Source: an uncultured Opitutaceae bacterium
GTDB taxonomy: Bacteria > Verrucomicrobiota > Verrucomicrobiia > Opitutales > Opitutaceae
Assembly: GCA_951813085.1 (NCBI GenBank)
Contig: OX638348.1
Coordinates: 1,063,627 to 1,127,626 of the forward strand
Length of the DNA: 64,000 bases
Direction of reading: 5' to 3'
Shown here one piece after another: positions 33,927 to 35,012 of the stretch. Numbering within the stretch: the stretch's first letter is position 1; the number at the start of each line of letters is the position of its first letter. The notes under the pieces are model-generated. The model did not search any database, was not told the DNA's origin, and saw only the letters and a list, made by a program, of their open reading frames with translations. A program made the translations under genes and the position numbers.

Positions 33927-35012
33927 TTAGAGGTCGTCGTCGCTATCGAGATCGAGTGAGGACGCTTTCTGGTATTCGGTGACGCGTCCTTCGAAGAAGT
34001 TTTGCTCCTTCTTGATGTCCATCATTTCCGCGAGCCAAGGCAGCGGGTTCTGGACGTCGCCGATAAGCGGGTCGAGCCCGACTCCTTCGAGTCGTCGGTC
34101 GGCAATATAGTCTATATATTGCAGGAAATCTTCCTTGCGCAGCCCGATGGAGTCCATGGGCAGGCAGTCGCTGATGAAATCTTTTTCGAGCGCGATGGCT
34201 TCAGCCATAGTATCGCGTAGCTCTTGCTTGAATTCCGATGTCCAAATGTCTGGATTCTCGTCGACGAGCTCCATGAGCAGGTTGCGGAGGAGCTCGATGT
34301 GGTTGGACTCGTCGCGCAAGGTGTAGCGGAACATTTCGCCGATGCCGCGGAACTTGTTCTGGCGGTAGAGCGAGAGGATCATGCCGAACATGCCGTAGAA
34401 CTGGGTGCCCTCCATGCATTGCCCGAAGACGAAGAGGTTCTTGGCGAAGATCTGCTTGTTGCGCAGGTCCGTCAGATCCATGTCGCGGCGGAGGCCGTAG
34501 GAAGTGCGTGTGACGAACTCGTTCTTCTTAACGATGGTCTCGATATCCTCGAACATGGCCTCGCACTCGTGCGGGTTGATGCCCAAGGAGCTAATCATAT
34601 AGAGCAGGGAATCCGCGTGGATGTTCTCTTCGTGGCTGTGGCGGCCCAGGACGAGCTTGAGCTCGGGAGCGGTGACGCGCTCGCGGATCACGTGTATGAC
34701 ATTATCCCCTACGATGCCTTCAGCGGCGGAAAAGTAGCCCACGCCCATCATGATGATCCAGCGCTCGATATCCGAAACCAGGGAGTTGTCCTTCCACTGC
34801 TCGATGTCGCGGTTCATGATGATGTCCTCCGGCTCCCAGTGGTTCGCCTTCATGGTCTTGTACAAGTCGTAGGCCCAATGATACTTGAGAGGAAGCAGGT
34901 TGAAGCACATGGATTGGCGTCCATTGATGACGCGTTTTTCCGCGAATGCTTGCTCCGCTTTTTCTTGATCGAGTAGGAAGGTCTTATTGCCGACGGTGTA
35001 CGTTTTATCCAT
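33927..35012 (-). CDS. nrdB: Ribonucleoside-diphosphate reductase, small (beta) subunit, class Ic type
   Basis: A 361-residue R2 protein. The six metal ligands are recognisable: E98 (S-A-A-E), E129 and H132 (E-E-N-I-H), E201 (C-M-E-G) and E235/H238 (R-D-E-S-N-H). Spacings between ligands agree with Chlamydia trachomatis R2. The position four after the first His, which is the radical Tyr122 in E. coli and Phe127 in Chlamydia, is Leu136 here, and the first ligand is Glu, not Asp. Both are marks of class Ic enzymes, which use a Mn(IV)/Fe(III) centre in place of a tyrosyl radical. The C-terminal tail with Tyr and acidic end (D-S-D-D-D-L) needed for NrdA docking is present. Start 35012 is chosen over 35093, which would add a non-homologous leader. 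First gene of the nrdB-nrdA operon, behind two NrdR boxes. Confidence 0.94.
   Translation of the reverse strand: MDKTYTVGNKTFLLDQEKAEQAFAEKRVINGRQSMCFNLLPLKYHWAYDLYKTMKANHWEPEDIIMNRDIEQWKDNSLVSDIERWIIMMGVGYFSAAEGIVGDNVIHVIRERVTAPELKLVLGRHSHEENIHADSLLYMISSLGINPHECEAMFEDIETIVKKNEFVTRTSYGLRRDMDLTDLRNKQIFAKNLFVFGQCMEGTQFYGMFGMILSLYRQNKFRGIGEMFRYTLRDESNHIELLRNLLMELVDENPDIWTSEFKQELRDTMAEAIALEKDFISDCLPMDSIGLRKEDFLQYIDYIADRRLEGVGLDPLIGDVQNPLPWLAEMMDIKKEQNFFEGRVTEYQKASSLDLDSDDDL

Follow-up and report, generated by a model that had tools for sequence, protein, structure and literature searches.

Organization of the nrdB–nrdA locus

The window, i.e. the whole stretch of 64,000 nucleotides that was analysed, carries on its minus strand an nrdB gene (33927..35012) for the R2, or radical-generating, subunit of a class I ribonucleotide reductase (RNR), a protein of 361 residues with leucine at the position of the radical tyrosine. 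The gene, for which the initial annotation of this DNA had named no strand, runs from an ATG at 35012 to a stop at 33927, and this start is favoured over an upstream GTG at 35093 because M1 is nearly invariant among the relatives. The product matches NCBIfam NF005550 with 334 bits against a cut-off of 309, as well as Pfam PF00268, and both databases thereby describe it as an RNR beta subunit. On the same strand and about 150 bases downstream follows nrdA (30571..33774, minus), which encodes a catalytic subunit of 1067 residues that has, by alignment with E. coli NrdA (KTTYYLRT vs KTLYYQNT), the Tyr-Tyr pair of the radical path in its C-terminus, as well as one ATP cone by Pfam (PF03477, 88 bits; residues 158-242, 33049..33303, minus). 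The order nrdB–nrdA differs from that in Chlamydia trachomatis, where nrdA is reported to precede nrdB (PMC3019208). The R2 sequence family, the six metal ligands, a C-terminal pathway tyrosine and the NrdA partner together place the protein among the class I R2 subunits. Three long open reading frames (920, 643, and 490 residues) precede nrdB on the minus strand (35342-41536).

Upstream of nrdB there are also two palindromes, CACAATATCTTGTG (35170..35183, minus) and CCACACCATCTAGTGG (35138..35153, minus), the centre of the second lying 31 bp downstream of that of the first, which we take to be NrdR-like boxes, judging by the form and spacing that such sites usually have. Within the 260 bases that precede the gene there are two matches to CAC-N3-AT-N3-GTG, and none of 5000 shuffles contained two or more. 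Ten of the 23 relatives scanned (L003-L006 and L008-L013) have an equally spaced NrdR-like pair in which neither box shows more than one mismatch; in L015 and L057 the boxes of such a pair have two mismatches, and no pair is claimed for the other 11. A gene for NrdR is present elsewhere in the genome, which is assembled as one contig of 4.85 Mb and is 97% complete. It contains one PF00268 gene, the R2, and one PF02867 gene, the nrdA described above, and searches of it found no class II or class III enzyme and no NrdD. As this is the only RNR found in the genome, the tyrosine-less R2 would have to be a working enzyme.

Leucine at the radical position

The metal ligands E98, E129/H132, E201, and E235/H238, as well as L136 at the radical position (codon 34605..34607, minus), were all recovered where the initial annotation had placed them, including its assignment of Glu as the first ligand (E98, codon 34719..34721, minus), a position that is also Glu in C. 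trachomatis (E89, opposite E98 in the MAFFT alignment) and Asp in E. coli. The same annotation had considered that an alignment might move a “Tyr139” to the radical position; the nearby tyrosine is in fact Tyr138, residue 139 being Met, and the proposed alignment with the C. trachomatis R2 puts L136 opposite F127, with no tyrosine at the site. In a phmmer search of the PDB, that R2 was the best match (E = 4e-80, 273 bits), and the stretch around L136 pairs with it free of gaps, as it does with the second match, 6y2n (E = 4e-71), which is presumably the R2 of Saccharopolyspora erythraea. In the MAFFT alignment, E98/E129/H132/L136/Y138/E201/E235/H238 of the window correspond to E89/E120/H123/F127/Y129/E193/E227/H230 of C. 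trachomatis, and L136 stands opposite Tyr122 of E. coli.

Leucine occupies this position in 81 of 81 loci, the window gene being one of them, and in 127 of 127 open reading frames with an identity of 60% or more over the window protein, a set in which the window gene is present twice (L001 and L083) and the same genome may recur across the two collections. Leu136 is therefore neither a sequencing error nor a chance substitution, and the absence of the tyrosine from the radical position of this R2 is confirmed. Over 68 aligned rows, the identity of the first ligand goes with that of the radical residue: Asp is accompanied by Tyr in 18 of 18 rows and Glu by the lack of Tyr in 46 of 49; the other Glu rows, which do have Tyr, are two class Id proteins and one from Blattabacterium, and the one remaining row, the copy at L115, has Gln as first ligand. 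The Blattabacterium protein, encoded on a plasmid (L157:777-1769), combines Glu and Tyr with Trp at the seventh residue after the first ligand and Gly at the position of the class Id lysine, and it adjoins class Id in the tree described below.

With regard to the recognized subclasses, the combination of Glu98 and Leu136 differs from the Asp first ligand and radical tyrosine of classes Ia and Ib, and the retention of all ligands together with the lack of a tyrosine differs from class Ie, in which three metal-binding glutamates are replaced and the tyrosine is converted to DOPA. Class Id keeps a tyrosine that is sequestered by a threonine; in the window R2 the threonine is present (Thr231) and the tyrosine absent. 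The window R2 has the pattern of class Ic, a Glu first ligand with no tyrosine at the radical position, even though the strict wording of that class asks for Phe (PMC3824934, where Leu, Ile, and Val are also noted) and the residue here is Leu.

The replacement of Phe by Leu, Ile, or Val in R2c proteins is documented in PMC3824934, citing Hogbom 2010, so that the description of Leu in the initial annotation as a less studied variant overlooked an existing report and at the same time understated the case, the leucine being one of a fixed and mostly polar set of residues. Among the literature searched, the tyrosine-less R2s with a Glu first ligand for which structures or biochemistry exist are of the Phe type, and the searches, which covered mostly open-access papers and are weak evidence in that respect, found no biochemistry on a Leu-type R2. 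The substitution itself is thus already known; the clade-wide polar set and the separate kinship were not found described.

Occurrence and kinship of the Leu-type R2

From the phylum, 387 genomes were drawn, of which 116 had a relative at E <= 1e-10, and 40 stretches, mostly divergent ones by choice, were fetched. Their R2s fall into three types, namely those with Leu and a Glu first ligand, those with Phe and Glu (10 of 10), and those with Tyr and Asp (12 of 12). The Phe-type rows (L117-L126) come from other Verrucomicrobiota families and are about 40% identical to the window R2. For the best 80 contig loci the record titles name Verrucomicrobia or Kiritimatiellota, apart from a few titles of metagenome-assembled genomes (e.g. 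“bacterium” for L054, “Rubrivivax” for L060, “PVC group” for L063, and “Planctomycetaceae” for L064). A scan of the viral_contigs collection for Leu-type relatives gave one stretch that matched a pattern and none that was confirmed, and the 1964 phage and 332 plasmid records yielded only R2s that are less than 60% identical to that of the window.

A tree of 51 rows was built with twelve key columns masked, with 17 sequences representing the Leu clade alongside the window R2, and with five Phe or Tyr rows omitted as near-duplicates. In this tree a branch (98/97) separates the Leu rows and the divergent copies from the others. The second group, with values of 98/95, joins Chlamydia, 6y2n, Methylocella, and the verrucomicrobial Phe rows with three Tyr/Asp rows. 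The Chlamydia R2 thus groups with the Phe-type proteins and apart from the Leu clade (99/95), and the statement of the initial annotation that the enzyme is tyrosine-independent “as in its PVC relative Chlamydia” is borne out as regards the kind of site but not as regards the nearest kinship. The three Tyr/Asp rows, which are R2s of Acaryochloris, Massilia, and phage Lauda, are nested within the class Ic (Phe) group (98/97), in a tree whose backbone is open and which has several long branches. These three proteins (L154, L155, and L158), with their Asp and Tyr, may represent a return of the tyrosine.

Topology tests rejected neither the joining of the Leu clade to the whole of the second, class Ic group (p-AU 0.392) nor its joining to the class Id side (p-AU 0.20). 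A grouping of the Leu clade with the Phe rows to the exclusion of the Tyr rows, which would mean one loss of the tyrosine common to these two types alone, was rejected post hoc (p-AU 0.0107), and the Phe rows alone gave p-AU 0.081; the value of 0.0107 is to be read as merely suggestive, since the groups were named after the tree had been seen. The kinship of the sequences is suggestive of a tyrosine that was either lost twice or regained once. If Leu and Phe did replace Tyr separately, metal-held R2 radicals would have arisen more than once from ancestors with a tyrosine, or the tyrosine would have returned.

Second-sphere and pathway residues

The residue comparison covered 128 Leu-clade rows (the window and 127 others), 10 Phe rows, and 12 Tyr rows. 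Fixed or nearly fixed in the Leu clade, and unseen at the same positions in the Phe rows, are Y93, H125, H127 (127 of 128), L136, T203, Q204, T231, and N237. A further comparison of 64 rows (30 with Leu and 34 others, with four divergent paralogues or outliers set aside) gave, between residues 40 and 299, 21 positions with a residue that all Leu rows share and no other row has, including H107, H125, L136, Q198, T203, and N237; T231, Q204, and Y93 are missing from these 21 because each is shared by another row, Thr231 by two class Id rows. H125 (codon 34638..34640, minus) takes the place of Q116 in C. trachomatis and W111 in E. coli, T203 (34404..34406, minus) that of Ile, Leu, Val, or Met in the 34 compared rows outside the Leu clade, and N237 (34302..34304, minus) that of I229 in C. 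trachomatis and L240 in E. coli, while T231 (34320..34322, minus) corresponds to I223 in C. trachomatis, I234 in E. coli, and Thr294 or Thr191 in class Id. The deepest branch beside the Leu clade (L116:2986-4158) has Leu136, Thr203, Thr231, and Asn237 but Trp125 and His138, which suggests from the residues in this one sequence that the polar core may have preceded His125.

In E. coli, Phe208, Phe212, and Ile234 form a hydrophobic dioxygen pocket beside Tyr122, as described in PMC5623701. The window R2 retains the two phenylalanines of this pocket (Phe205 and Phe209) and has Thr231 in place of the isoleucine and Leu136 in place of the tyrosine. T231 lies four residues before E235, just as Thr294 of class Id lies four before the bridging Glu298, and in the class Id protein of Leeuwenhoekiella blandensis this Thr294 is reported to keep the tyrosine away from the metals. 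Judging from the numbering, the positions in the helices, and the cited papers, the side chains of the fixed polar residues probably face the metals; an AlphaFold2 model built with 41 close relatives reached a pLDDT of 59.1, which is too poor for side-chain placement.

The pathway residues W59, Y138, Y230, and Y347, which correspond to W51, Y129, Y222, and Y338 of C. trachomatis, do not vary within the Leu clade, and the electron-entry pair of class Ic, Y230/W59 (Y222/W51), is present in 128 of 128 rows. Y222, the counterpart of Y230 (codon 34323..34325, minus), admits the electron to the Mn/Fe site; according to PMC4118035 it is conserved in R2c and not in R2lox, and the reduction of Mn(IV)/Fe(IV) by one electron proceeds through it. 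The residue that precedes the first ligand is Ala in all 128 Leu-clade rows and Ala (8) or Gly (2) in the Phe rows; a small residue there was reported to shift a class Ib R2 towards Mn/Fe (PMC7239806), and it is not exclusive to these types, as six of the 12 Tyr rows have one too.

Among proteins of known structure, the R2c of C. trachomatis (PDB 1syy/4d8f) is the closest in sequence, and it shares with the window R2 all six ligands with Glu as the first, the lack of a radical tyrosine, and the four pathway residues. It differs in the replacements Phe127 to Leu, Ile223 to Thr, Ile195 to Thr, Ile229 to Asn, Phe196 to Gln, Gln116 to His, and Phe118 to His, and it belongs to a separate clade, being about 38% identical over the window protein. 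The 6y2n R2 is likewise similar in its Glu first ligand, missing tyrosine, and radical path, whereas it has Phe at the radical site and groups with Methylocella and tyrosine-bearing R2s. The class Id NrdBi of Leeuwenhoekiella blandensis resembles the window R2 in the Glu first ligand and in the threonine four residues before the bridging Glu, and it has a Mn2(IV,III) cofactor, a tyrosine, and a Lys/Trp signature, the latter two of which are absent here. Class O ferritin-like proteins are described as carrying either Phe or Leu at this site (PMC9531940), but they have a very short C-terminus and belong to a different, minimal RNR.

Nature of the cofactor

Since the radical tyrosine is missing, the first ligand is Glu, and the W59/Y230 pair is kept, an oxidant centred on the metals is the best reading of this R2, and a metal-held Mn/Fe oxidant is the form that we consider most plausible, with a probability of roughly two in three. 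In class Ic, a Mn(IV)/Fe(III) pair keeps the hole, and the Mn occupies site 1, which is nearest to the place of the lost tyrosine (PMC8463856). The window R2 would function in the same manner, its oxidizing equivalent most likely residing on a Mn(IV)/Fe(III) pair with Mn in site 1 beside Leu136; O2 would react with Mn(II)/Fe(II) to give this cofactor, Y230 and W59 delivering the extra electron, and in turnover the hole would leave the metals by way of W59 and Y347 of R2, reach the Tyr-Tyr pair of NrdA, and pass on to the NrdA cysteine. The metals and their oxidation states are deduced from sequence comparison, and the ligand set cannot by itself distinguish Fe/Fe, Mn/Fe, and Mn/Mn sites (PMC4118035). 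It also counts against Mn/Fe that Thr231 is a feature of class Id, which is a Mn2 class, and that the Leu clade does not clearly group with the Mn/Fe enzymes.

An alternative is that the oxidant is a dimanganese one, Mn(IV)/Mn(III), made with superoxide as in class Id on a scaffold that has no tyrosine. The Glu first ligand and the threonine at the class Id position would fit such a cofactor, as would a topology that unites the Leu clade with the class Id side, which the test did not reject. The class Id enzymes, however, retain their tyrosine, and their lysine and tryptophan at the fourth and seventh residues after the first ligand are here Gly102 and Val/Ile105; on the basis of these features, the lysine being that of the studied subgroup, membership in class Id itself was rejected. 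Together with a much higher similarity to the C. trachomatis R2c (273 bits vs 38 for 6cwo) and an electron-entry residue, Tyr230, of the class Ic type, this makes a dimanganese oxidant improbable. An enzyme with two irons that either has no stable radical or stores the hole on some other residue is similarly doubtful and, in our estimate, a shade more so. Candidates for such a residue are Tyr138, which is fixed and only two residues from the radical position, and Tyr93, which is fixed here and is Phe84 in C. trachomatis. Tyr138 is no special substitute, as it equals Tyr129 of C. trachomatis, is fixed in the Phe clade, and is present in some Tyr-type R2s, and Tyr93 corresponds to Tyr79 of E. 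coli, the hydroxyl of which is bonded to Glu283 (PMC5623701); both were rejected as replacement radical sites on the residue comparison and this role of Tyr79, and the mapped metal pocket contains no tyrosine that is special to the clade.

That the protein might be an R2-like oxidase (R2lox) or a non-catalytic R2 relative instead of an RNR subunit is very improbable, in spite of the fact that R2lox also combines a Glu first ligand with the lack of a radical tyrosine and that dead R2 copies exist in related genomes. The gene adjoins nrdA behind the NrdR boxes and is the sole PF00268 gene found in the genome, and models for R2lox score at most 41 bits, far below their own cut-offs. R2lox membership was rejected because Phe205, at the position of Phe208, is Ala in R2lox and because the C-terminal Tyr347, absent from R2lox, is kept.

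The altered second sphere may bear on the origin of a proton. When the Chlamydia cofactor is reduced, a proton is taken up from a source that is not apparent and that PMC11883743 calls “a matter of speculation”. With Leu136 and Thr231, the otherwise dry dioxygen pocket could hold a water or give a proton to the hydroxide at site 1, and we propose Thr231 and the space left by Leu136 as a natural candidate for a proton relay in the Leu clade. A clade of this size with leucine and a polar pocket amounts to a natural experiment on the selection of Mn/Fe by the protein and on where the proton in radical transfer comes from.

Second R2 copies in related genomes

A search of one family of the window's class covered 260 genomes, 144 of them with a match, and in 15 genomes a second R2 gene that has lost metal ligands was read directly upstream of the live Leu-type nrdB (L115:3299-4513 in genome G378, L161-L172, L173, and L174). 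In 13 of 13 of these copies, those of G378 and of 12 genomes of genus g206, E98 is replaced by Gln, H132 by Arg, E235 by Val, Ile, or Thr, and H238 by Arg, and the C-terminal tyrosine is lost; E129, E201, W59, and the acidic C-terminal tail are retained. The two copies from genus g208 show other losses, and the live copies read at L167 and L173 are not complete. The dead copies are intact as coding sequences, with a median pN/pS of 0.25 (78 pairs) vs 0.12 for the live copies (66 pairs), and are under purifying selection.

The obvious comparison for a metal-dead R2 partner is Rnr4 of yeast, which pairs with Rnr2, and by analogy the dead copies look like a bacterial counterpart of it. No bacterial case of a dead R2 was met in the mostly open-access literature that was searched. 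Should the tandem copies form heterodimers, an arrangement in the style of eukaryotes would exist in bacteria and could be tested there. A broader and more tentative proposal, which we regard as rather unlikely as a whole, is that the Leu-type R2 represents a metal-radical class I RNR of yet another kind, in which the tyrosine would have been lost independently of the Phe enzymes, a polar second sphere (Leu136, Thr231, Thr203, Asn237, His125, and the Glu first ligand) would supply the proton or water of site 1, and one branch would be heterodimeric with a metal-dead R2, like yeast Rnr2/Rnr4.

Two further genomes (L113:3218-9030 and L114) have nrdB, a second nrdB copy that keeps its ligands, and nrdA in tandem; this second Leu-type copy is 54% identical to the window protein and carries His138, His209, and Asn230. 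At L149 (genome G330), the R2 gene is split across two overlapping frames, reflecting either an assembly error or a broken gene.
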